Under the pieces are notes generated by a model. The model was not told the origin of the DNA and searched no databases. It was given only the letters and a program-made list of their open reading frames with translations. 46,184 nt of DNA from Lachnospiraceae bacterium (lineage in GTDB: Bacteria > Bacillota > Clostridia > Lachnospirales > Lachnospiraceae): the NCBI GenBank assembly GCA_017623295.1, contig JAGAPK010000042.1, positions 1 through 46,184 on the forward strand, given 5' to 3'. A program made the translations under genes and the position numbers. This document shows positions 1-12,383 of the stretch, piece after piece (within the stretch, counting starts at the first letter, position 1; each line of letters begins with the position of its first letter).

Positions 1-168
1 AGAAGTGAGCAAATGGTTGAAAAAGATACCATTCAGTCAATGTTCCTGTTTGAGCTGGCAAAGTTGGAATTACCATTTGTGTTTAAGGGTGGAACTTCAC
101 TTTCTAAGTCATATAATCTGATAGATCGTTTTTCGGAAGAAATACAGTCACGGTATTTCTCTTATTAA
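1..168 (+). pseudogene. AbiEii-type nucleotidyltransferase toxin, truncated remnant
   Basis: The open frame at the left edge reads through a segment like the N-terminal half of AbiEii/AbiGii toxins (type IV toxin-antitoxin), with the nucleotidyltransferase signature FKGGTSLSK followed by LIDRFSEEI. In intact members the metal-binding acidic pair comes directly after this point. Here the family sequence ends after SEEI and the frame closes a few codons later with TAA. The catalytic acidic motif and the whole C-terminal half (normally more than 200 residues) are missing, so the fragment should be inactive. Its start lies outside the window, and no AbiEi antitoxin gene is visible here. The family assignment rests on one motif region and is moderately sure. 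Confidence 0.6.
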
Positions 169-359: not shown

Positions 360-388
360 TTGCATAAATTCGTTTTTCTGCATATAAT
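360..388 (+). promoter_or_regulatory. sigma-A promoter of the leader RNA / DUF3800 unit
   Basis: A -35 box TTGCAT (360-365) is followed after exactly 17 bases by a consensus -10 box TATAAT (383-388). Transcription should begin near 395, inside a dyad TGTAAACAAGTTTACA (394-409) that could also be an operator. The only gene directly downstream is the DUF3800 gene, and a terminator lies between. Confidence 0.75.
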
Positions 389-394
389 AATAGT

Positions 395-470
395 GTAAAC
401 AAGTTTACAATGGGCTGGTCGAAAGACCCAGGTCCAACCTATTTGGCGGGGAGACTCCCCGCCGTTTTTT
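395..470 (+). ncRNA. short structured leader RNA upstream of a DUF3800 gene
   Basis: A promoter and a strong terminator define a transcript of about 75 nt. It contains a 5' hairpin made from the TGTAAAC/GTTTACA arms. A central hairpin at 411-436 has a GGUC stem capped by a GAAA (GNRA) tetraloop and flanked by UGG/CCA pairing. The terminator hairpin closes it. Structured RNAs upstream of DUF3800 genes have been described by comparative genomics (the DUF3800 RNA motifs of Weinberg and colleagues). Whether this sequence belongs to one of those classes cannot be settled without a covariance search. It could be an attenuator, a free small RNA, or an RNA partner of the downstream protein, as in type III toxin-antitoxin pairs. 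Confidence 0.55.
445..470 (+). terminator. rho-independent terminator between leader RNA and DUF3800 gene
   Basis: Perfect 8-bp stem GGCGGGGA / TCCCCGCC with a 3-nt GAC loop, then G and six T. It ends only 14 nt before the DUF3800 start codon, so most transcripts from the promoter at 360-388 should stop here, and expression of the gene depends on read-through. Confidence 0.85.
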
Positions 471-484
471 ATTTTAGAGGTATT

Positions 485-1165
485 ATGAAGGAATTAAGTG
501 TATTTGTAGATGAATCCGGGGATTTCGGTGAATATGAAAAGCATGCACCATATTATATTATTACCATGATTCTGCATGACCAGAGTGTTGATATATCAGC
601 AGAAATTGGGAAATTAAATGAAGCATTAAAGAATATGGGGTACGGTAACGAACAGGCGATTCATACAGAACCGCTAATAAGGAGAGAAGACCCTTATAGA
701 TATTTTCAACCAAATGAAAGACGTGCGATATTTTCGAAGTTATTTTACTTCACGCTTGGATGTGATATTAAGTATAAGTCGTTTGTCTATAGAAAATCTG
801 AGTATGAAAATATATTCAAGTTGGAAGCAAGAATGGCGAGAGATTTATCACGGTTTATTAGAGACAACCTTACATATTTTCAGAGCTTCAGCAAGGTCAT
901 TTTATATTATGACAATGGGCAACATGAATTAAATCGTATTCTTAATACTGTGTTTGCGACACAGTTGGTTGATTATGATGTGCGAAAAGTTATTCCAAAC
1001 GAATATCGTTTATTTCAAGCTGCAGATTTGATTTGTACTTTGGAATTATTACGAGTGAAAACGGAACATCAAGATTTATCAAATTCAGAGAAGAGAATTT
1101 TTCATTCCAAGAGAGATTTGAAGAAAGATTTCTTGAAAGGAATTAAGAAGAAAGAGTTTATATAG
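485..1165 (+). CDS. DUF3800 domain protein (RNase H-like fold)
   Basis: 226-residue protein of the DUF3800 family. The family signature FVDESGDFG lies at residues 6-14. A second conserved acidic motif, YYDNGQ, lies in the middle, and FQAADLICTLELL is near the C-terminus, which is basic. These acidic motifs form the putative metal site of an RNase H-like fold. Biochemical function is not established for the family, although it is often found in defence and mobile regions. ATG at 485 is preferred because AGAGG sits 4 nt upstream. An in-frame ATG at 410 lies upstream of the terminator hairpin and would translate through it, so it is rejected. The gene sits behind its own RNA leader and terminator, between toxin debris and other accessory genes. 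Confidence 0.85.
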   Translation: MKELSVFVDESGDFGEYEKHAPYYIITMILHDQSVDISAEIGKLNEALKNMGYGNEQAIHTEPLIRREDPYRYFQPNERRAIFSKLFYFTLGCDIKYKSFVYRKSEYENIFKLEARMARDLSRFIRDNLTYFQSFSKVILYYDNGQHELNRILNTVFATQLVDYDVRKVIPNEYRLFQAADLICTLELLRVKTEHQDLSNSEKRIFHSKRDLKKDFLKGIKKKEFI

Positions 1166-1213
1166 AGCAGAGTGAGCTGATATTAAGGTTCGTTAAGTAA
1201 AGGAGTGAAAATT

Positions 1214-1801
1214 ATGTATCATTCATGGGATAAACTCTTGCATATAAAAACAACCGGCAGGGATGATTCGAACTCTGACCAATATCGTTATCCATATGAA
1301 CCTACCCCATATAGCGTTTTGGTGCGATTAGCTAATAGTGGCTTTATTCGTAAAAGAGATGTGCTTTTAGACTATGGTTGTGGGAAGGGGCGTGTCGATT
1401 TTTTCCTGTCCTATCAAACCAAGGCAAATACTATCGGGATTGAATATGATGAACGCATTTATCAGAGTGCGCTGGAAAATCAGAAGACTGCCGTTTCGGG
1501 AGCAAAGACAGAATTTGTACTGGCGAGGGCAGAAGAATATGAAGTGCCATCGGAAGTCAATAGGTACTATTTTTTCAATCCTTTTTCTGTGGAGTTACTT
1601 CGAAAAGTGATGGCAAGAATTATAGAATCCTATTATGAGAAACCGAGAGAAGTGTTTTTGTTTTTTTACTATCCGTCAGAGGATTATATTTCATATCTTA
1701 TGACAGTGGAAGAGTTAGAATTTTATGATGAGATAGTTTGTGGTGACTTGTTTGGAGAAAATGACATGCGGGAACGGATTGTGATTTTTTTATTAGCTTA
1801 A
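1214..1801 (+). CDS. class I SAM-dependent methyltransferase
   Basis: 195-residue Rossmann-fold methyltransferase. Motif I, LLDYGCGKGR, is the glycine-rich S-adenosylmethionine loop. It is followed by IGIEYDERIY, the acidic end of strand beta-2 that binds the ribose, and FFNPFS at the motif IV position. The substrate is unknown. NPFS resembles the NPPY-type motif of some amino- and base-methyltransferases, but that alone does not identify a target. ATG at 1214 is chosen because AAAGGAG ends 8 nt before it; a GTG at 1205 overlaps that site. The gene follows the DUF3800 gene by 48 nt and could be read from the same transcript. It looks intact, unlike its neighbours on either side of the patch. 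Confidence 0.8.
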   Translation: MYHSWDKLLHIKTTGRDDSNSDQYRYPYEPTPYSVLVRLANSGFIRKRDVLLDYGCGKGRVDFFLSYQTKANTIGIEYDERIYQSALENQKTAVSGAKTEFVLARAEEYEVPSEVNRYYFFNPFSVELLRKVMARIIESYYEKPREVFLFFYYPSEDYISYLMTVEELEFYDEIVCGDLFGENDMRERIVIFLLA

Positions 1802-1815
1802 TATAAAATTAGGAA

Positions 1816-1844
1816 TGAAACTTAAAACTTTGAAATTGTATAAT
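1816..1844 (+). promoter_or_regulatory. possible promoter of the QueG-like gene
   Basis: A consensus -10 TATAAT (1839-1844) lies 40 nt before the QueG-like start codon. The hexamer 17 bases upstream, TGAAAC, is a poor -35 match, so this is tentative. Confidence 0.35.
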
Positions 1845-1884
1845 ACAATACATTGATGTTAGTGATAGAATATAAGGAGAAGAA

Positions 1885-2547
1885 ATGGTTGCAAAAAAAA
1901 TACAACAAATATTTGCCAAAGTACCCGAAGTAAAATATGGTTATACAGATATTTCTTATAGTTCATTTTCAGAGGAATATAGGTTTGCATTGGTGTTTGC
2001 AGTTCCATATGAAGAACAACTTAACTTAGACAGTTATACAGAAGAAAGGTTCGAAAATAGTATCCTGAATGCAAGGAATAAATTAGAAATAATTTTGAAA
2101 GATATTGAAATTGTATTGAAGGAAGAATGTATAAAGTATTATATTCCACCTGTAGCTCAACAAAATGAAGAAGATTTATTAGCAGTATTTTCATTCAAAT
2201 ATGCTGCTGTTAATGCTGGGTTAGGATGGATTGGAAAAAATGATGTACTGATTACAGAAAAATATGGACCAAGAGTAAGACTGTCGGCAGTTTTGGTTGA
2301 TTATCCTTTTGAAACTGGAAGAAAAATTACTGAAAGCAGATGTGGTTCTTGTAATAGATGTGTTGATATTTGCCCACACAAAGCATTAAAAGGATTGAAT
2401 TGGGATATTAATGCATTAAGAAATAATTTAATAGATTACCATTTGTGTAATCAGAAAAGAAGTGCGTATATTGAAAAGCACGGAAGAAAAAATGCATGTG
2501 GTTTATGCATGGTAGTATGTCCTTTTGGAATGGGAGAAACTATATAG
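1885..2547 (+). CDS. QueG-like protein with double 4Fe-4S cluster domain
   Basis: 220-residue protein with two ferredoxin-type cysteine clusters near the C-terminus, RCGSCNRCVDICPHKA and CGLCMVVCPFG, predicted to bind two 4Fe-4S clusters. The middle segment GLGWIGKNDVLITEKYGPRVRL is the conserved core of the epoxyqueuosine reductase (QueG) family. True QueG proteins are roughly 310-380 residues and have a C-terminal HEAT-like extension, which is absent here. This is therefore the short form common in Clostridia, often called epoxyqueuosine reductase without proof. No queuosine genes lie nearby. ATG at 1885 is preceded by AAGGAG at good spacing. Confidence 0.75.
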   Translation: MVAKKIQQIFAKVPEVKYGYTDISYSSFSEEYRFALVFAVPYEEQLNLDSYTEERFENSILNARNKLEIILKDIEIVLKEECIKYYIPPVAQQNEEDLLAVFSFKYAAVNAGLGWIGKNDVLITEKYGPRVRLSAVLVDYPFETGRKITESRCGSCNRCVDICPHKALKGLNWDINALRNNLIDYHLCNQKRSAYIEKHGRKNACGLCMVVCPFGMGETI

Positions 2548-2645
2548 TGATTTTGCTAAATTAGATTTAGAAAATACTCGGAAAATTTCAGTCTTGTGGA
2601 GAGATTGAAAGCACGCATGAATTTGAATTTTAGTGAGGCGGTAAA

Positions 2646-3009
2646 ATGGACGTAACCTTATATTAACGTGAAAAAGGGAATAAAGAGCCGTTTATTCTTT
2701 TACATGGAAACGGCGAGGATGGTACATATTTTAAACATCAAATAGATTATTTTAGGTTTTTCTGATGGAGCCAATATCGCAATGGAATTTGCGTTAAAAT
2801 ACCCTCACAAAATAAAGGCATTAATACTAAATGCAGGAAATCTGAATCCAAAAGGTGTCAAAAGAACAATACAGATTCCTGTTGAATTAGGATATAAGAT
2901 AGCAACAAGGTTTTCATCAAAATCACAGAGGGCTAAGGAAAATGCGGAAATGCTTAGATTAATGGTTAATGAACCTAATATTGTTCCATACGAAGTTAGC
3001 TATTGTTAA
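2646..3009 (+). pseudogene. alpha/beta-hydrolase, broken by internal deletion
   Basis: Two parts of one hydrolase lie in different frames. The first, from an ATG at 2646, is interrupted by TAA at 2664 and carries FILLHGNGEDGTYF, the HG oxyanion-loop region. About 90 nt later the frame shifts and GFSDGAN appears, the nucleophile elbow with the catalytic serine, followed by MEFALKYPHKIKALIL as in the helix and strand after the elbow. The 40 or so residues normally between oxyanion loop and elbow are gone. The protein also ends at VSYC before the usual Asp and His of the triad. Stop codon, deletion, frameshift and lost C-terminus make it a clear pseudogene. Confidence 0.75.
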
Positions 3010-3023
3010 GGGCAATGCATAAG

Positions 3024-3878
3024 TTATAGCATTTCTGTTCCCAGCACTTCTCTTTTAATGTAAACAGGATAAACAGGCGGGCATTTCTTGTATATATCAT
3101 AGAAATGCTCGCTTTTTTCTGCGCTGCTGCACCATTTTACAAGATTCATGCGATAACCGCACAGTTCAATACAGGTAATACATTTCGGATGAACGCAGCT
3201 GCCACAATTGCAGTAAGGAGAATCCGTATTACCGAGAGTTGGTCTGTGTGTATGACCGGTCAGAAGAAGGCAGTTTGTATCTTTGGCATATTCAATATAT
3301 CTTTTTTCCAGTTTTTGTTTTTTCGTATTATTCTTAGCAGCACTGGTTGGGTCCAGAACACCAAAGTATTCTAAAGGTGTCCACAGGTGTCTTACCAGAA
3401 ATTTTGCAAGTCTCCAGAAAACAGAATTAAGTAAATCAGCCTGATGCCCATGTGTAACACGTAGTTCCATAGGAAAGGATTCACTTTTCAGAATAAGACT
3501 TTCGTAATATCGAAAATCATCAAACAGAGGAACCTGGTTTTTCTTAGCCATATCATGATTTCCATAGAGCATATATAAGCGCCCCTCTTTATGAAAATGA
3601 CATAGCAGAGAAAATACATCCGGATGTATTTCCATAATCTGCTCCATACAGCAGTTTTCCCAAAGCTCATCCCCATCGCCGACTTCAATATAATGAAAGC
3701 CATATTGATAATAGTATTGCAGAGCCGCAAAATAGCTGTTGGCATTTTTGAGAAAATTGTCATTGTTTGTGCCGATTCCCCTATGACAGTCGCTGAAAAA
3801 GACATATTGCGTATGAGGAGTAATTGGCAGCATGGGAGCATTTTCAAAAGCATGATTAAGGCGCTTTATATAACTCAT
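3024..3878 (-). CDS. calcineurin-like metallophosphoesterase
   Basis: 284-residue dinuclear metallophosphoesterase with all five family motifs: FSDCHRG (Asp30, His32), VGDGDE (Asp68), YGNHD (Asn107, His108, Asp109), THGHQ (His143, His145) and GHTH (His209, His211). The layout resembles UDP-2,3-diacylglucosamine hydrolase-like and related phosphoesterases, but the organism is not expected to make lipid A, so the substrate is unknown. A cysteine-rich stretch, CNCGSCVHPKCITC, follows GHTH and is unusual; it might bind a structural metal. The gene lies 27 nt downstream of the DUF4474 gene on the same strand, with GGAG before its start, suggesting one transcript. Confidence 0.85.
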   Translation of the reverse strand: MSYIKRLNHAFENAPMLPITPHTQYVFFSDCHRGIGTNNDNFLKNANSYFAALQYYYQYGFHYIEVGDGDELWENCCMEQIMEIHPDVFSLLCHFHKEGRLYMLYGNHDMAKKNQVPLFDDFRYYESLILKSESFPMELRVTHGHQADLLNSVFWRLAKFLVRHLWTPLEYFGVLDPTSAAKNNTKKQKLEKRYIEYAKDTNCLLLTGHTHRPTLGNTDSPYCNCGSCVHPKCITCIELCGYRMNLVKWCSSAEKSEHFYDIYKKCPPVYPVYIKREVLGTEML

Positions 3879-3905
3879 AATAAAAACTCCAATCTGAATA
3901 TAAGT

Positions 3906-4817
3906 TTATTTGTTTGCTTTTGATTTCAACATATGTCTTACGACAAATGGCAGATAGTAATATAGATAAAGCAATTTGTCACCACTGTTTGTATAGGCTC
4001 TGGTAAGAAATCGGAACAGTTTGCAATACACATAGCATGCCATAAGTGCTATGGGGCGTACCATACGTTTGAAAACCGAGTATTTACGATGGCTTTGATA
4101 AAAAGTAAAGTATACTGTCAGACCATTGGATTTATAAGGTATGTCAGGCATGGTTGCTTCAAAACTATCCAGAAACTGATTCATCATGTAGTAATTTTTA
4201 AAATGGATAGAAGTATTGACGAAAATATTATTTGGATTGGTATAAGTGCCCATTTTAAAGATAGTGAGCCACCAATGTTTTCGCTTGGCGTAGCCAAGGT
4301 CAGTGCCTGAATTAAGTAGATGAGTTCTTTTATCAGGATAGCGGTTTAACTCTAAAGAGATATCTAACATATCTTTGCTCTCTACTGCATGAAAAAGCGT
4401 AGTAGAGTATTCTTCCGGGGAAGCAATGGTGTCAGCATAATATAGGCCAAGTTCGCATCCGGTATTAATGCCATACTGTCCTTTCCACATCTCGATCAGC
4501 CACGTCTTTTCATTGTAGTCAAAATAAATAGTTTCATAGTCGAATACCATATTGAAATAGGGTGCTGAAAAATCATAGAATGATGTGTATCCGAAGACTT
4601 TTTGAGGAGCATCCAATCTTGCTACAAAAATATCCTGATGAGAATTATAGGAGTAGCCAACGGGTCTTGTTAGATTATTCAGCAAATCCTGCTTTTGGGG
4701 CATGCTGAAAGAATTTACTTTTTCGATGACTGACTTTTTCTTAAAATGCAGTACAATCAGGAGAAGCAGAATCAGGATTAAAAAGCTAATGGGTATCAAA
4801 AAGTATATAGCTTTCAT
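3906..4817 (-). CDS. DUF4474 domain membrane-anchored protein
   Basis: 303 residues. An N-terminal hydrophobic helix (about residues 4-25) is followed by a lysine stretch, giving a single anchor. The body matches the DUF4474 family, with YNSHQDIFVARLDAPQ, YTSFYDFSAPYFN and KTWLIEMWKGQYGINTGCE as the conserved core. DUF4474 has no known biochemical role. It occurs in many Clostridia, usually as an anchored protein. The ATG used has little ribosome-site signal upstream, which suggests weak translation. The metallophosphoesterase gene follows it in the same direction. No function is proposed. Confidence 0.7.
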   Translation of the reverse strand: MKAIYFLIPISFLILILLLLIVLHFKKKSVIEKVNSFSMPQKQDLLNNLTRPVGYSYNSHQDIFVARLDAPQKVFGYTSFYDFSAPYFNMVFDYETIYFDYNEKTWLIEMWKGQYGINTGCELGLYYADTIASPEEYSTTLFHAVESKDMLDISLELNRYPDKRTHLLNSGTDLGYAKRKHWWLTIFKMGTYTNPNNIFVNTSIHFKNYYMMNQFLDSFEATMPDIPYKSNGLTVYFTFYQSHRKYSVFKRMVRPIALMACYVYCKLFRFLTRAYTNSGDKLLYLYYYLPFVVRHMLKSKANK

Positions 4818-4920
4818 GATTTTACCAATTTCGTACTTTTGTTATATTTTATGCAGAAATGAAAAAATGTTTTTTTTGTAAAACAATAGTAAAAAATAGG
4901 AAAAATTTCCTAAAAGTGTA

Positions 4921-4949
4921 TTGACAACAAAAATAAATAGTGTTAAAAC
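4921..4949 (+). promoter_or_regulatory. promoter of the first chemoreceptor gene
   Basis: Consensus -35 TTGACA (4921-4926), 17-bp spacer, -10 TAAAAC (4944-4949). The start codon is 38 nt downstream, behind AAAAGGAGA. The flanking region 4820-4920 is very A-rich and could act as an UP-like element. I see no sigma-28-type box. Confidence 0.6.
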
Positions 4950-4987
4950 TTTAACGAATAAAAATTGCTAGAAAAGGAGACAAGAAG

Positions 4988-6667
4988 ATGTTAAAGAAGC
5001 TAGACAGCATGAAAATGGGGAAAAAAATTAACTACGGATACTTTATTGTTATTATTCTTATGATTATTTCCGGTGTTTTAAGTATGATCGGACTCGGTAC
5101 TTCTTACGCGAATCTGATGTCTTACATCAACGGCTCTCAGAGAGCAGATACAGCAGTTAAAATCTGTAAAGTAGACATTAACATTGCAGCAAGAAATATT
5201 CGAGAGATGGTCTTAAATGAAGACACAAGCAGTTACAGTGATTACAAAGCAGTTGTAGATGCAAATATGGAAGAGGTTGGTGTTGAACTGGAAACTCTGA
5301 AAGCAACCGGAATGGTTTCAGAAGAACTTTATACAAGTTTTGAAACAGCATTGAGCAACTGGGGAAGTGTAGGTTATGAAATTATTGCTGAAATCGAAGC
5401 GGGAGAAAAAGAAACTGCTATTACAAGAATTATGGATGAATGTGCTCCGGCATTAGACGAAGTAGAAGAACTTGCAAATCAGTTGGATGATGAAACTGCT
5501 GTGCGGAAAGAAAAATCAATTCAGACTGCAATGATTTCCTTAATCATATTCATTGCGATTATTGTCATTTTTGTTGTGCTTGCGGTAATTATGGCAGTTA
5601 AGATTGGTAAGCATATTATTAGTTCTATTATGACTCCGCTTCAGGAGATTGAAAATGTAGCAACTGATTTGTCAGCCGGAAATCTTCACAGCCATTTGGA
5701 TTTCCACTCTGATGATGAGCTTGGTATGCTGGCTCACAGTTTGAGAAAATCAATTCGTACCTTAAGTTCTTATGTAGATGATATCGATCATGCAATGCGT
5801 GAATTCTCAAGTGGTAACTTTACGGTAAATGCAGAGGTGGATTGGAAAGGTGATTTTGTAGGAATTCTGAATGCTTTTATGGATTTTGAAGATAACATGT
5901 CAGAAGTTGTGAAAGGAATTCAGAATGTTGCAGATCAGGTAAAAGGCGGTGCAGAACAGGTTGCAGCAAGCGCTATGGAACTGGCACAGGGAGCGACAGA
6001 GCAGGCAAGCATTACAGAAGAAATTTCGGCTACTGTTGAAAACATATCTGAGCGAGTATCCCAGAATGCAGAAAATGCAAAAGAAATCAGTAAAAAAGTA
6101 GAAGATGTTACAGTTGAAATTGATAATAGTAATACAATGATGAAGGAAATGGTTGATTCTATGAATGATATCAACAATGCTTCCAGAGAAATCAGCAAAA
6201 TTATTGCTACTATCAATGATATTGCATCCCAGACTAACCTATTGGCATTGAATGCATCTATTGAAGCAGCAAGAGCTGGAGAAGCTGGTAAAGGTTTTGC
6301 AGTTGTTGCAGATCAGGTATCTTTATTGGCTGCGCAGAGTGCTGATGCAGCGCATGAATCTACTACATTGATTGAATCTTCTGTAAGAGCGGTAGAAAAA
6401 GGTATGGTAATTGCAGAAGAAACCGCACAGCATCTTGAAAGTGTTGTAGCTGGTGCAAAGATAATTACAAAAGAAGTAAGCGGTGTTGCAGATGAGTTAG
6501 AGGAACAGACAACAGCAATCGTACATTTGAACGATGGAATCCAGCACATCAATGATGTTGTTCAGACAAACTCTGCAACTTCCGAAGAATGTGCAGCAGC
6601 AAGTCAGGAAATGAGCAATCAGGCCATTTCACTGGAAAAGCACATTGGCAAATTTATTGTAAAATAA
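4988..6667 (+). CDS. methyl-accepting chemotaxis protein, four-helix-bundle sensor type
   Basis: 559-residue transmembrane chemoreceptor that passes ligand binding to a CheA/CheW array. TM1 is at about residues 17-37. An extracellular, mostly helical sensor of about 140 residues follows and fits a 4HB_MCP-type bundle. TM2 is at about 181-204 and HAMP at about 205-258 ([18 protein letters not shown]). The long cytoplasmic coiled coil has the hairpin tip [21 protein letters not shown] near residues 411-431. There is no C-terminal NWETF-type tether for CheR. The gene is monocistronic, with its own promoter and terminator. No che genes occur in the window, so the signalling partners are elsewhere. 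The ligand is not predictable. Confidence 0.95.
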
Positions 6668-6692
6668 TTTTTGATACATATCTGGCAATTAG

Positions 6693-6725
6693 AACACCCT
6701 GCATGGTATATGCGGGGTGTTTTTA
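6693..6725 (+). terminator. terminator after the first chemoreceptor gene
   Basis: Stem ACACCCTGCA / TGCGGGGTGT (10 pairs, one T-G) with a 7-nt loop, followed by TTTT. Confidence 0.85.
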
Positions 6726-6739
6726 CATTTGGAGAAGTC

Positions 6740-6771
6740 TGTGAAAACTTTGTGAAAAGATTGTGAAAAAA
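6740..6771 (+). promoter_or_regulatory. three phased TGTGAAAA repeats, likely response-regulator site
   Basis: TGTGAAAA begins at 6740, 6751 and 6762, giving three direct copies spaced exactly 11 bp, about one helical turn. They end 12 bp before the -35 box of the efflux operon. Direct repeats with an 11-bp period upstream of -35 are typical of OmpR/PhoB-family activators, but no such regulator is encoded in the window. Confidence 0.55.
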
Positions 6772-6783
6772 GTGGTAACAGCA

Positions 6784-6812
6784 TTGCAGTTTGAAAAGAC
6801 ATACTTTAAGAT
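6784..6812 (+). promoter_or_regulatory. promoter of the MacAB-like efflux operon
   Basis: -35 TTGCAG (6784-6789), 17-bp spacer, -10 TAAGAT (6807-6812). Both boxes are below consensus, fitting a promoter that needs an activator at the phased repeats just upstream. The transcript start would be about 20 nt before the AAAGGAGG ribosome site. Confidence 0.5.
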
Positions 6813-6839
6813 AATTTTTGATATAAAGGAGGATATACA

Positions 6840-8801
6840 ATGAAGTCAATATTAGAAAAAATCGGCAGACATAAGAAAATCGTAATTGCACTTGTGGCAG
6901 TGCTTATCATTGCGGTTACAGCTTCTGTAGTTGTAAGCAATGCGAAAGAGAAGCAGAAAGCGATGATGGCAGAAATGTCGAAGCTGGAAACAGAGCAAAT
7001 TGAGAAACGTACATTGGTTGAAAGTATATCAGCTACCGGTACGGTAACAAGTACAGGCAGTAAGAGTGTTACAACAGATGTAACCGGGGTTGATGTTTTA
7101 GAAGTTAATGTAGAAGTTGGAGATACAGTAAACGAAGGAGATATCCTCTGTACACTTGATACAACAGAACTGGAATTGGATTTGGCAGATGCGCAGACTT
7201 CCTTGAATGCAACACAAGGAACAACCAATATAAAGGTGTCCGAAGCAGAAAGAAGTCTCAGTGAAGCAGAGGAAAGCAGAGATATCAATCTGGAAAGAGC
7301 GGATGAAGATGTAGCAGATGCATGGAATGATTATTTGTTAGCATTAACCGATTTAGAAGAAGCGGAAGATGCATATAATGATGCACAGGCAGCAACAATT
7401 TCTAAAAGTGCAGAATATGAATTAAGTAAAACGAAACTGGCAGAAGCCGAAACAGCTATGAATAATGCGGCAGCAGGTTCCGGTAAAGGTAGTACATATG
7501 AAACCCAGTTTAGCGTGGAAGTAAAAGCACTGCAGGAATATATCAAAAGTCAAAATTTAACTAATATACCGGGTGCACTGGATAAATTATATATTTCTAA
7601 TACAGAATTACAAACATATACTGCAAGTTCGATTGTAGACAGTGCCGCGATGACTGCAGATCAGACGACAGCAATCGATGGATATTTAGGTACTTTAAAA
7701 GGTTATCAGACTGCCTATTTGTCAGCAAGTTCAGCCGATGTAGCATATCAGCAGGCACAGGCTGAGTATCAGACCTTACAGGCAGAAACGACAGAATGGC
7801 AGACCAAATATAATTCAGCAAAACAGACAGAATCAAGCTGTGAAAGTGCTTATGAACAGGCAATTACAGCAGCTAATTCCAAATTGGATGCTTATAATCA
7901 GCAGGTTAGAAGTAAAGAAGATACGGTTCGTAATAGTGACAGTACTGTAAGTACACAGGAAAGCAGTCTTGCATCAACTAAAATAAGTGCAACAACATCC
8001 GGTACTTCTGAAAAGAAGCAGATTAGACAGTACGAAGACCAGATTGAAGCTTGTACGGTAACAGCGCCAATGAGTGGTGTGATAACAGAAGTAAATGTAG
8101 AAGCTGGTGATTCCTATGCGGGTACGACTATTGTTACAATTGAAGATACCAGTGCATATGAAGTTACGGTTGAAATCAGTGAATATGATATCAATAAAGT
8201 AGAAGTAGGGCAGCAGGTTGTTATCAAAACCAATGCAACCGGAGAAGAAGAACTGAAAGGTACGGTAAAAGAGATTGCACCAAGAGCAACCGAAGGTTCT
8301 TCAGAGGTTACTTATACGGTTATTACTTCTATTGATACTCCTTGTGATGCCTTGAAAATGGACATGACAGCAAAACTCAGCATTATTCTGGAAAGCAAAG
8401 AAAATGTCTTGACCGTACCTTATGATGCGGTACAAGAAGACGAAGAAGGAAATTATTATATCGAAGTGGTATCAGAAGATACAACAGCAGTAGCACCGGA
8501 AAATGCAACTGAAATGCCGGAAGATGCACAAATGCCGGAAGGGGAAGCCCAGACAGGAGAAACTTCATTTGAAATGAAGAATAAGGCAATGCCGGGTGGA
8601 GCACCGGATAGTGAAGGAATGCCTTCTACTCAGACAAAAAGAATTATCATTACCAAGGGTATTGAGAGTGATTATTATATTGAAGTCATCAGTGATGAAG
8701 TGACAGAAGGAATGGAAGTCGTTATTCCGGCTACTGAGGGAACAGGCGGATTTGATATTCAGAATATGATGCAGCGTCAGGGACCGATGGGAGGATTCTA
8801 A
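6840..8801 (+). CDS. HlyD/MacA-family membrane fusion protein
   Basis: 653-residue periplasmic-adaptor-type protein anchored by one N-terminal helix (about residues 14-33). The order is a first half of a lipoyl/biotinyl-like domain (VLEVNVEVGDTVNEGDILC), a very long Ala/Glu/Gln-rich alpha-helical hairpin (about 105-395), the second lipoyl half (CTVTAPMSGVITEVNVEAGD), then beta-barrel and membrane-proximal domains. A Met/Pro/Glu-rich insert (APENATEMPEDAQMPEG and onward) interrupts the C-terminal domain, and the protein ends in a Met/Gly-rich tail. In Firmicutes such adaptors work with MacB-type transporters across the single membrane (compare YknX). The next gene starts on the base after its stop. 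Ribosome site AAAGGAGG. Confidence 0.9.
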   Translation: MKSILEKIGRHKKIVIALVAVLIIAVTASVVVSNAKEKQKAMMAEMSKLETEQIEKRTLVESISATGTVTSTGSKSVTTDVTGVDVLEVNVEVGDTVNEGDILCTLDTTELELDLADAQTSLNATQGTTNIKVSEAERSLSEAEESRDINLERADEDVADAWNDYLLALTDLEEAEDAYNDAQAATISKSAEYELSKTKLAEAETAMNNAAAGSGKGSTYETQFSVEVKALQEYIKSQNLTNIPGALDKLYISNTELQTYTASSIVDSAAMTADQTTAIDGYLGTLKGYQTAYLSASSADVAYQQAQAEYQTLQAETTEWQTKYNSAKQTESSCESAYEQAITAANSKLDAYNQQVRSKEDTVRNSDSTVSTQESSLASTKISATTSGTSEKKQIRQYEDQIEACTVTAPMSGVITEVNVEAGDSYAGTTIVTIEDTSAYEVTVEISEYDINKVEVGQQVVIKTNATGEEELKGTVKEIAPRATEGSSEVTYTVITSIDTPCDALKMDMTAKLSIILESKENVLTVPYDAVQEDEEGNYYIEVVSEDTTAVAPENATEMPEDAQMPEGEAQTGETSFEMKNKAMPGGAPDSEGMPSTQTKRIIITKGIESDYYIEVISDEVTEGMEVVIPATEGTGGFDIQNMMQRQGPMGGF

Positions 8802-9506
8802 ATGGATAAAAAAGCAATGATTGAGCTGCATAATATTGTCAAACGATTTTACATCGGAACACCGAATGAGTTAGAGGTTTTAAAGGGAATTGATCTGACT
8901 GTTTACGAAGGGGAGTTTGTAGCGATAGTCGGAGCCTCCGGTTCCGGTAAATCTACTTTGATGAATATTATCGGGGCGCTGGACAGACCGACTCAGGGAA
9001 CCTATACACTAGATGGAGTAGATGTCATTGCAGCGAAAGATACTGAGTTGTCCAAAATCAGAAACCGAAAAATCGGATTCGTTTTTCAGACCTATAATCT
9101 GATTTCCAAAACGAATGCGATTCGAAATGTAGAAATGCCGATGTTGTATGCAGGGATGTCTGGCAGAAAACGAGTAGAAAGAGCGAGAGAACTTCTGGAA
9201 CTGGTTGGAATGGGTGACAGAATGAGACATTTGCCGGAAGAACTTTCCGGTGGACAGAAGCAGCGTGTTGCGATTGCGCGGGCTATGGGAAATGATCCGG
9301 CGATTATTCTGGCAGATGAGCCAACGGGCGCGCTGGACTCCCAGACGGGCAGAAAAGTAATGGACCTTTTTCATAAATTACATGAGGAACAGGGTAAAAC
9401 AATTGTGTTAATTACCCATTCGCCGGAGCTGGCAGAGGAAACACAGAGGGTTATTACCATAAAAGATGGTTGCATTACCGGTGAAAGGAGTGGAACAGGC
9501 AGATGA
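8802..9506 (+). CDS. ABC transporter ATP-binding protein, MacB/LolD type
   Basis: 234-residue nucleotide-binding subunit with Walker [11 protein letters not shown]-loop FVFQTYNLI, signature [14 protein letters not shown], Walker [17 protein letters not shown] and switch His in [10 protein letters not shown]. The FQTYNL and EPTGALDS forms are typical of the MacB/LolD (type VII) ABC branch that works with FtsX-like permeases. It is sandwiched between the adaptor (zero gap) and the permease (4-nt ATGA overlap), so the three are translated together and probably form one complex exporting a peptide, lipid or toxic compound. The substrate is unknown. Confidence 0.95.
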
Positions 9507-10792
9507 TGATATTTTATGAAAATATCAGACTGGCATTGTTTAGTCTGAAAGCTAATAAAATGCGTGCTCTTTTGACTATGCTTGGCATTATCATTGGTAT
9601 TGCTTCGGTTATTGCCATTATGACGGTTGGTAATTCATTGACAACTACGGTAACGGATTCCATGTCTTCGATGGGCGCCAATAATATTACTGTCGGATTG
9701 CAGCAGAAAGAACAGGAAGAAGAAGTAACAGATGAGGGGATGAGCTTCGAAGGTAGAAAACCGATGAAAACAGCTGAGGAATCTGATTATTTTACAACAG
9801 AAATGTTAGAGAATTACTGCGAAACCTATGCAGATTCTATTGTAGCACTTTCTGCGACAGAAACATTGGGAAGCGGTCAGATATTGGATGGAGACTTATA
9901 TGCGAACGTGGCGGTTGTAGGAACCAGTCTGGGCTATTTTGCGGCAAATGATACGACTCTTTTATCCGGAAGAATGTTTAGTGAAAAAGAAATGAATGAG
10001 AATGCAAAAGTAGTATTGATTTCGGATAAAGCAGTTGATAATATGTTTGAAGGAGATATTGAAGCAGCAGTTGGAAGTATCGTACAGATTAGCGTAAACG
10101 GACAATATTATAATTTTACGGTTGTAGGTGTATATGAATATGTAGAGTCGGCTATGAGCTTTTCGTCTTCTTCTGATAAAGATGTATCGACGAATTGTTA
10201 TATTCCGCTTCGAACAGCGAAGGACATCAATCATACTACCGGTTATTCACAGTTTACGGTTGTTACAACAGCTGATGTAGATTCGGAAACATTTGCAGAA
10301 GATACGGAACAGTTCTTTAATGTATATTATCGGAACAATCGATACTTTGAAGCATCTGCATTCAGTATGGCATCAATGGTTGAAACGATGACAGATATGT
10401 TGTCTACGATTACAACAGCAATCGCTGTTATTGCAGGAATTGCACTGTTGGTAGGTGGAATCGGTGTTATGAACATTATGCTTGTGTCTATTACGGAGCG
10501 TACGAGAGAAATTGGTACCAGAAAAGCACTTGGTGCACCAAACAGTTCCATTCGTCTGCAATTTATTGTGGAATCTATCGTTATTTGTCTGATTGGTGGT
10601 ATTTTAGGCATTATTCTGGGTGTGATACTGGGAATTGCATTTGCTGATTTCTTAGGAACAGCAGCAGTACCTTCCATAGAAAGTATTATTATATCCTTAA
10701 GCTTTTCTATGGCAATTGGTGTGTTCTTCGGATATTATCCGGCAAACAAAGCAGCCAAAATGGACCCCATTGAGGCGTTGCGATATGAATAA
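9503..10792 (+). CDS. MacB/FtsX-family ABC permease
   Basis: 429 residues. TM1 is at about residues 20-42 with the MacB signature KMRALLTMLGIIIGIASVIAI preceding a large extracellular domain (about 45-300). Three C-terminal helices follow, with GVMNIMLVSITERTREIGTRKALGA and the ending PANKAAKMDPIEALRYE. This is the standard MacB topology (four helices, one big extracytoplasmic domain) and acts by mechanotransmission rather than by a transmembrane channel. The start overlaps the ATPase stop codon. No terminator was found after it, and the aminotransferase gene begins 28 nt later. Confidence 0.93.
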   Translation: MMIFYENIRLALFSLKANKMRALLTMLGIIIGIASVIAIMTVGNSLTTTVTDSMSSMGANNITVGLQQKEQEEEVTDEGMSFEGRKPMKTAEESDYFTTEMLENYCETYADSIVALSATETLGSGQILDGDLYANVAVVGTSLGYFAANDTTLLSGRMFSEKEMNENAKVVLISDKAVDNMFEGDIEAAVGSIVQISVNGQYYNFTVVGVYEYVESAMSFSSSSDKDVSTNCYIPLRTAKDINHTTGYSQFTVVTTADVDSETFAEDTEQFFNVYYRNNRYFEASAFSMASMVETMTDMLSTITTAIAVIAGIALLVGGIGVMNIMLVSITERTREIGTRKALGAPNSSIRLQFIVESIVICLIGGILGIILGVILGIAFADFLGTAAVPSIESIIISLSFSMAIGVFFGYYPANKAAKMDPIEALRYE

Positions 10793-12012: not shown

Positions 12013-12231
12013 CTTTTTAACTTAAAAAATAAAATCAGTGAGCAAAAAGAGTACCGGAAGCTGGGACATTACAGAGAGTCGGCGTTGGTGGAAGTCGATA
12101 TGAAGCACTTTTGGGAATGGGTTTGTGAGATGCAGGTTGAAATGTGAAGAGTAGACTGAGCCGTACCTCTGCGTTAAAGAGAAGGATATCGAAGTTGTAT
12201 CCGTAATGAGTCAGATGATTGAATTGGTGGC

Positions 12232-12263
12232 AAGGTATTTTCCGATTGGAAGATACCTTTTTT
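12232..12263 (+). terminator. terminator-like hairpin inside the T-box leader
   Basis: AAGGTATTTTCC / GGAAGATACCTT forms 12 pairs (one T-G) with a 4-nt loop and runs into TTTTTT (12258-12263). It occupies the place of T-box Stem III, but the U-tract makes it look like a working terminator ahead of the regulated one. Confidence 0.55.
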
Positions 12264-12328
12264 GTTTATCAGAAAAGAGGATATCTGATAGGAAGAATTA
12301 CTACCATGAAATGATATGAGAAACAGGG

Positions 12329-12383
12329 TGGCACCACGTGACATACGTCCCTACGAGGAAGTAGTCAGTGTGCCGCTTTTTTT
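12329..12383 (+). terminator. T-box regulated terminator
   Basis: The segment from GGCAC through CGTGAC pairs with GTCA-GTG-TGCC upstream of seven T (12377-12383). It overlaps the T-box element, so terminator and antiterminator are mutually exclusive, as in the standard mechanism. Confidence 0.8.

Follow-up and report, generated by a model that had tools for sequence, protein, structure and literature searches.

The leader of a DUF3800 gene in a 46,184-nt Lachnospiraceae contig (hereafter the window, meaning the whole stretch of DNA analyzed) encodes a short structured RNA of the DUF3800-XI family. The proposal of the initial annotation that this RNA and the gene product form an RNA-protein pair is well supported: homologues of the DUF3800 gene retain the leader, and its stems covary. 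The sequences show the architecture of the unit, a dependence of the gene on the RNA in one bacterial family, covariation, a predicted fold with invariant acidic residues, and solo RNAs of conserved structure in viral contigs. Beyond this, we give somewhat better than an even chance to a two-component module in which the RNA would bind and restrain a putatively toxic RNase HII-fold nuclease in a type III-like manner, with phages mimicking the RNA as a putative counter-defense. New here are the censuses, the covariation and the 5′ stem, the fold with its invariant acids, and the gene-less RNAs in viral contigs, which together supply a proposed partner logic for DUF3800 RNAs, namely that the RNA restrains an RNase HII-like nuclease.

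Architecture of the RNA-DUF3800 unit in the window

A GNRA-capped hairpin and a GC-rich terminator followed after a 14-nt gap by a DUF3800 gene had been described in the initial annotation, and all are present in the sequence (Table 1). The label of a consensus promoter held only in part: the −10 hexamer is perfect, but the label is generous because the −35 hexamer has only three of six consensus matches. The promoter was absent from the output of a simple promoter scan. Homology to a near-identical unit (L005) begins at window position 357, in support of the promoter. The predicted RNA starts at about position 395 and extends to 470 (approximately 75 nt), folding into three stems, the palindromic 5′ stem, hairpin 1, and the terminator hairpin, at −31.6 kcal/mol (z = −3.6; 1 of 200 shuffles was equally stable). 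Hairpin 1 has a GAAA loop and a 2-nt bulge on its 3′ side, and the terminator hairpin (444-464) has nine pairs, after which the U-run reaches 470. Because the 14 nt between the end of the U-run and the ATG at 485 are too few for a further promoter, the DUF3800 gene is presumably made by read-through past the terminator. An N-terminal extension of the protein from an ATG at 410 through the RNA was also considered and rejected: although this frame is open in the window, its counterpart is uninterrupted in just 28 of 64 homologous units, and we therefore took 485 as the start.

Table 1. Features of the RNA-DUF3800 unit and a neighboring fragment in the window
Feature	Position	Strand	Basis
AbiEii N-terminal fragment, neighbor outside the pair	13..168	+	Pfam 2.1e-8, PADLOC 1.3e-17
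Promoter: −35 TTGCAT (360-365), 17-nt spacer, −10 TATAAT (383-388)	360..388	+	sequence; prediction
16-nt palindrome TGTAAACAAGTTTACA, optional 5′ stem of the RNA, outside the Rfam model	394..409	+	inverted-repeat statistics, fold
Hairpin 1, UGGGCUGGUC-GAAA-GACC-CA-GGUCCA, DUF3800-XI core (RF02975)	411..436	+	Rfam, covariation
Hairpin 2, GGCGGGGA-GAC-UCCCCGCC plus U-run; intrinsic terminator (predicted), conserved second hairpin	444..470	+	sequence, covariation
Ribosome-binding site AGAGG (predicted)	476..480	+	sequence
DUF3800 gene, 226 aa, predicted RNase HII-like nuclease	485..1165	+	PF12686, alignment, structure model

A covariance search of the leader, one of the checks proposed with the initial annotation, matched Rfam RF02975 (DUF3800-XI) at 411-460, scoring 66.2 bits where the gathering threshold is 37.8 (E = 1.4e-12). 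The RNA family was thus known beforehand, in keeping with the earlier remark that RNA motifs linked to DUF3800 genes exist. RF02975, which has the Rfam type “Gene; sRNA,” shares with the window RNA its sequence, structure, and position upstream of a DUF3800 gene on the same strand, but the Rfam match ends inside the terminator stem and omits the variable 5′ stem. The DUF3800 RNA motifs were reportedly first described by Weinberg et al. in 2017; to our knowledge, no function has been assigned to DUF3800-associated RNAs, DUF3800-XI included, since then. Tandem Repeats Finder, applied to positions 300-1300, listed only a repeat at 1109-1131 within the gene and no tandem antitoxin repeats, and each aligned relative has one core hairpin per unit. 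The toxin debris reported nearby is real and corresponds to the AbiEii fragment.

The DUF3800 protein is predicted to adopt an RNase HII-like fold

Pfam found only DUF3800 in the protein encoded by 485-1165 (PF12686, 38 bits against a cutoff of 21), and PADLOC gave no match for this protein. The best PDB matches of its structure model (pLDDT 92.5) were RNase HII enzymes, and we predict on the basis of the model that the protein is a nuclease of RNase HII-like fold. Residues D9, E10, D143, and D181 are invariant among 35 aligned sequences and are candidate active-site acids. RNase HII carries a DEAG motif. As a check for a ToxN/AbiQ-like fold, we consulted Pfam, which gave only DUF3800, and the best PDB matches, which were to RNase HII.

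The RNA is conserved with the gene across phyla and covaries

Scanning species genomes for relatives of the protein yielded 54 loci in Lachnospiraceae, Treponema and other Spirochaetaceae, Fibrobacter, Flexilinea, Erysipelotrichaceae, and a Lentisphaerae bin. The hairpin lies upstream of the gene in 51 of these loci, with the exceptions of L048, where the match begins mid-gene at residue 94, and of L054 and L055, which have a different leader. From the start of the match, the frame spans at least 200 aa in 43 of the 54 loci; it runs off the contig in L033 and is shorter in ten others through frame breaks, deletions, or partial matches. L054 and L055 are divergent DUF3800 relatives (L054 at 37% identity), and their hairpin-rich leader has no Rfam name.

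Alignment of the leaders, also suggested with the initial annotation as a search for compensatory changes, revealed that the leader is kept with DUF3800 homologues and that its hairpins covary. Among 59 units classed as intact, 94.3% of pair cells were standard and 14 of 18 pairs, including all eight pairs of the hairpin 2 helix, had changed on both sides; none of 500 shuffles scored as high on any of five measures, and this alignment includes five rows with a 3-nt bulge that are misaligned by one base and count against the structure. In the 45 nt preceding hairpin 1, 56% of 62 units of the intact class have an inverted repeat of at least 6 bp, compared with 13% of shuffles. Because this repeat is common and its sequence variable, it likely forms a 5′ stem of the RNA that the Rfam model does not include. 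By eye, the 5′ stem is missing and the promoter abuts hairpin 1 in the Treponema/Fibrobacter units L017, L019, L020, L034, and L035, with L051 as the exception in which the stem is not missing. Beyond the loops and the bulge, unpaired sequence amounts to one short linker; no long variable guide segment was seen, and both hairpins are conserved.

In one family, every full-length gene with readable upstream DNA has the RNA, but many RNAs lack the gene

We took two censuses in 299 genomes of the family of the window, drawn from a larger group, in which RF02975 identified 62 RNAs (56 above the cutoff) and PF12686 gave 68 matches. Excluding three RNAs at contig ends left 59 evaluable RNAs, of which 25 (window included) are followed by an intact gene, 11 by a remnant or frame-broken gene, and 23 by no detectable gene. 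Genes were detected by tblastn at E of 1e-3, so very short gene stubs would be missed, and frameshifts in MAGs may inflate the broken-gene count. Counting instead from the gene, we obtained 28 full-length clade matches (window included). One of them (G039:C142) runs into a contig end; the RNA is present at 27 of the 27 with readable upstream DNA. Two of these RNAs, at G224:C30 and G041:C44, had been missed by the family scan; the sequence of the former recurs in L217, whose RNA scores 32.4 bits with the XI-based covariance model, and the latter fits the RNA alignment. Eighteen non-clade DUF3800 loci of the census scanned with Rfam had no XI RNA, one having DUF3800-I and one DUF3800-VII. With RNA at all 27 genes but an intact gene behind only 25 of 59 RNAs, these sequences indicate a one-way dependence, of gene on RNA and not the reverse, in this one bacterial family. 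Target size by itself would produce some of this asymmetry: observing no RNA-first loss among 34 has p of about 0.006 for a 110-bp target of RNA plus promoter versus 680 bp, and p = 0.03 for a 75-bp target, under simple assumptions and uncorrected for shared ancestry.

Bacterial solo RNAs retain their structure

The bacterial RNAs lacking a detectable gene adjoin ordinary chromosomal genes. Pairing in helix 1 is 93.9% in these 23 RNAs versus 94.4% in the 59 units classed as intact, with 22 double-change cells, a count matched by none of 500 shuffles; less striking were the numbers of covarying pairs and pair types, for which 19 and 63 of 500 shuffles were as high. Rfam scores did not differ significantly between intact and solo RNAs (p = 0.11), and promoter scores were lower for solo RNAs than for intact units (p = 0.018). 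We sought orthologues of two solo loci and found no conserved solo locus: for the first, one sister genome has the right flank but no RNA, and for the second there was no syntenic match.

There is a considerable possibility, though clearly below an even chance, that the bacterial solo RNAs are leftovers of decaying cassettes whose promoter, hairpin, and terminator have survived only by being a short target. The estimate from target size, the gene remnants behind 11 RNAs, the lower promoter scores, and the sister genome without the RNA at its flank are all consistent with decay, which is compatible with our preferred reading of an RNA that restrains a nuclease but leaves unexplained the solo RNAs of viral contigs described below, in which hairpin 2 and the inner stem show paired changes.

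Pairing of solo RNAs with another recurrent gene was tried as an explanation and rejected: for 10 of the 23 solo RNAs we scanned one neighbor apiece, and of these neighbors eight hit different Pfam families, two had no Pfam match, and none had a typical phage domain. At L162 (902-2077), the terminator of a solo RNA is followed by an acyltransferase gene starting ATGAAAGAA where DUF3800 would be. In L123 and L125, from two genomes, the RNA and leader are 99% identical over 101 nt, and the two sequences part at a point about 19 nt inside the gene.

Viral contigs carry the RNA without the gene

The DUF3800 protein family occurs in 18 IMG/VR contigs. We scanned 17 of them with the RNA model, which located the RNA in 14 at E below 1e-4; contigs that bear the gene could be host DNA. 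With a search pattern that fixed the outer stem, we recovered 31 IMG/VR stretches, 7 with DUF3800 similarity and 24 without it, where absence of the gene refers to the DNA stretches examined and not to whole genomes. The covariance model matched 22 of the 24 gene-less stretches at E below 1e-4 (L255 and L257 are not matched), and these 22 stretches represent 13 contexts by flank homology. A control pattern with reversed arms returned five stretches, none of which the model matched at the pattern site. Among variants of the pattern, GAGCTG/GGTTCA gave five stretches lacking a model match, which we took as chance, and two others gave no stretches. One search of 50,697 GenBank phage records gave five short weak matches, and a second gave no match in these records. 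Among the titles and abstracts listed by our literature searches, none dealt with solo DUF3800-XI RNAs in phages.

Eight of the 13 viral contexts have a tRNA gene on the same strand within 600 nt of the solo RNA; none was seen near the RNA in the other five, some of which have little flank. One viral solo RNA abuts a drum RNA, one array also contains ROOL, and L262 has two XI RNAs. In L264, the tRNA island by the solo RNA includes a tRNA-Pyl with a CTA anticodon according to ARAGORN (4566-4654). A PHROGs scan matched 15 of 20 proteins from 10 or so viral contexts, with L254 and L261 outside the scan. Structural phage genes were present in four contexts (terminase in L251, L248, and L270, portal in L251, and tail in L258), and three further contexts (L260, L256, and L252) have replication or repair genes. 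The viral RNAs of L243 and L246 agree at 52 of 54 positions with the bacterial RNA of L121, which lies beside a gene remnant.

Because the search pattern set the viral outer stem, only the inner stem and hairpin 2 provide independent evidence, and some of the 17 aligned rows come from homologous loci. The inner stem of these 17 viral solo RNAs is 98.5% paired with eight double-change cells; 0 of 500 shuffles reached this percentage, cell count, or score, and the numbers of covarying pairs and pair types did not stand out, with 200 and 205 of 500 shuffles doing as well. Hairpin 2 has a mean of 7.4 pairs in the 17 representatives versus 5.0 in shuffles, and its arms change in pairs across homologous viral loci (GACGUGG/CUGCGUC in L244, GGUGGGG/CCCCACC in L263, and GGAGGGG/CCCCUCC in L259). 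A decoy would be a solo RNA found in phages without its partner gene and kept by selection, and these 22 stretches in 13 contexts, with their covariation, have that character.

The U-run after hairpin 2 is often weak in these RNAs: at least six U in eight nucleotides follow hairpin 2 in 3 of the 17 viral representatives versus 88% of 67 intact units, compared with 65% of 23 bacterial solo RNAs and 57% of 21 remnant units, and at least five U in eight in 7 of the 17 versus 93% of intact units. Since viral hairpin 2 persists mostly without a strong U-run, it seems from these sequences to be kept for more than termination.

The cow-rumen-3 RNA resembles DUF3800-XI at its 3′ end

The window has a weak match to Rfam RF03083 (cow-rumen-3), which led us to search viral stretches for this RNA. 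A loose cow-rumen-3 pattern gave 60 stretches, four of which (three contexts) have an XI-like hairpin and pass the Rfam cutoff; they lie in contigs of 23 to 188 kb with tRNA genes within about 550 nt. Like XI RNAs of viral contigs, cow-rumen-3 thus occurs near tRNA genes, and it closes at the 3′ end with a hairpin of XI type (UGGGCUGG...GGUCCACC), but it differs in having an extra 5′ domain, about 110 nt long. These stretches score only weakly with the XI-based model (E = 0.002 to 0.09). From these features we propose that cow-rumen-3 may be a phage RNA carrying an XI domain. No cow-rumen-3 was found in 200 family genomes, in a search whose controls also gave no signal. The contig of L282 holds a cow-rumen-4 RNA (9488-9551) together with a cow-rumen-3 RNA.

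A model for an RNA-restrained nuclease and its alternatives

Two kinds of known systems resemble the unit. In AbiF/RCd22 of Clostridioides difficile, a toxic protein is expressed by read-through from a SigA promoter past a short RNA and its terminator, and the RCd22 RNA neutralizes it by direct binding (PMC12373285). The window shares with it a SigA-type promoter, a short RNA, an intrinsic terminator, and an effector without its own predicted promoter; the differences are that the AbiF effector belongs to Abi_2, linked to Cas13 ancestry, rather than to an RNase HII fold and that its RNA carries two abiF motifs. Type III toxin-antitoxin loci (ToxIN, CptIN, and TenpIN) express an RNA gene, a terminator, and an effector gene from one promoter (PMC5086642), and the window has the same arrangement with a predicted promoter and terminator. 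The likeness to type III loci drawn in the initial annotation is apt for the order of RNA, terminator, and effector on one strand; the window RNA lacks tandem antitoxin repeats, DUF3800 is the only domain that Pfam finds in the protein, and the predicted fold is RNase HII-like. Phage copies of such RNAs have precedents in the pseudo-ToxI of phage PhiTE, a mimic of an RNA antitoxin (PMC3475682), and in Racrs, phage mimics of CRISPR repeats (PMC10651486). They resemble the viral XI RNAs in being solo phage copies of the RNA partner of a host defense protein; the viral XI RNAs differ in that mimicry is suggested by sequence, across 13 contexts, often near tRNA genes.

Because the layout matches AbiF/RCd22 and type III loci and phage RNA mimics are known, we favor an RNA-restrained nuclease whose RNA phages mimic. 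One promoter would make an excess of short RNA of about 75 nt ending at its own terminator and consisting of a variable 5′ stem, a nearly invariant bulged hairpin, and a GC-rich second hairpin, and occasional read-through would yield the mRNA of the RNase HII-fold nuclease. The RNA would bind the nuclease in trans and hold it idle, as in type III and AbiF/RCd22 systems, until phage takeover or stress depletes the RNA and frees a nuclease that may then halt growth or damage nucleic acid. Large phages would carry the two-hairpin RNA alone, often in tRNA islands, as a mimic that keeps the nuclease bound. The defense or addiction role supposed in the initial annotation is a conjecture that the phage-borne copies help. 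To the fuller proposal, in which XI is the antidote RNA of an anti-phage RNase HII-fold nuclease encoded by a cassette crossing phyla and phage copies, including cow-rumen-3, serve counter-defense, we assign nearly but not quite an even chance. If true, RNA-neutralized effectors would extend beyond ToxN-like and AbiF folds, two Rfam families (DUF3800-XI and cow-rumen-3) would be linked to the phage-host arms race, and some noncoding RNAs of phage tRNA arrays would be disarming keys for host RNA-protein systems.

We consider it unlikely that the RNA is instead an obligate cofactor of the nuclease, as guide, scaffold, or activator, with phage copies loading a defective RNA like Racrs. The presence of the RNA at every full-length clade gene with readable upstream DNA agrees with a cofactor, as do the Racr precedent (PMC10651486) and the occurrence of DUF3800 proteins alongside some CRISPR effectors, for which a role in interference or crRNA handling is proposed (PMC10910872, PMC12669027). 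The lack of a long variable guide segment and the conservation of both hairpins argue against it, and a terminator before the gene favors an excess of RNA over protein, as for RNA antitoxins (PMC5086642). The phage RNA would be a decoy under both the inhibitor and the cofactor readings.

A purely cis-acting attenuator or riboswitch, in which the leader would sense a ligand or the DUF3800 protein and set read-through, had also been raised in the initial annotation, and the position of the RNA 5′ of the gene and its end in a terminator would suit it. We judge this improbable because the RNA persists with no detectable gene behind 23 of 59 evaluable bacterial RNAs and in 13 viral contexts and because viral hairpin 2 mostly lacks a strong U-run (present in 3 of 17 representatives). 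Equally improbable is that phages and bacteria use the RNA as a trans-acting regulatory sRNA with a target of its own, DUF3800 being a co-traveling processing enzyme. This would fit the solo RNAs in viral tRNA islands, by a drum RNA, within an array that includes ROOL, and next to ordinary chromosomal genes, but not an unpaired stretch reduced to a short linker, nor a gene never found without the RNA when the RNA occurs without the gene.

Mobility and genomic neighbors of the unit

In several cases, homology between near-identical units of different genomes is confined to the stretch from approximately the promoter to a few bases from the stop codon, which suggests that the unit often moves as a small cassette. 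Identity is 95% over 811 bp between the window and L005, 88% between L005 and L007, 91-93% among L017, L019, and L020, and 98-99% among L030, L031, L032, and L043, the last three of which share 50-110 bp more downstream while L030 stops at a contig end. Sharing between the window and L006 extends about 180 bp further upstream, L005 and L006 share a displaced 2.7-kb left segment, and synteny is longer in L034/L035, L040/L042, L021/L023, and L209/L210.

To look for the ends of a mobile element around the cassette, we screened 10 loci for direct repeats. Direct repeats of 53-102 nt in L031 (1564-1665 and 4685-4786) and L032 (385-437 and 4739-4791) have one copy just past the DUF3800 gene and the other upstream and could mark how the cassette was inserted; L043, L019, L020, L005, and L007 had no direct repeats, and in the remaining searched loci the repeats were elsewhere or formed an array.

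Neighboring proteins matched 95 PADLOC families among 148 proteins versus 13 among 73 control proteins; because these families overlap and the figures count families rather than proteins, the enrichment for defense is only suggestive. In L027, from a Spirochaetaceae bin (519-8133), the RNA-DUF3800 unit lies between a cas9-like ORF of 1115 aa and a CRISPR array. The array has about 33 repeats, each 36 nt long and containing TTGACA...TATAAT, separated by spacers that are mostly 30 nt, and cas2-like and cas1-like ORFs follow it on the minus strand; these cas names were assigned by eye. The window itself also contains a small methyltransferase-like gene (1205-1801) with a weak PADLOC match to mad2 and a T-box leader at 12029-12355 (102 bits).
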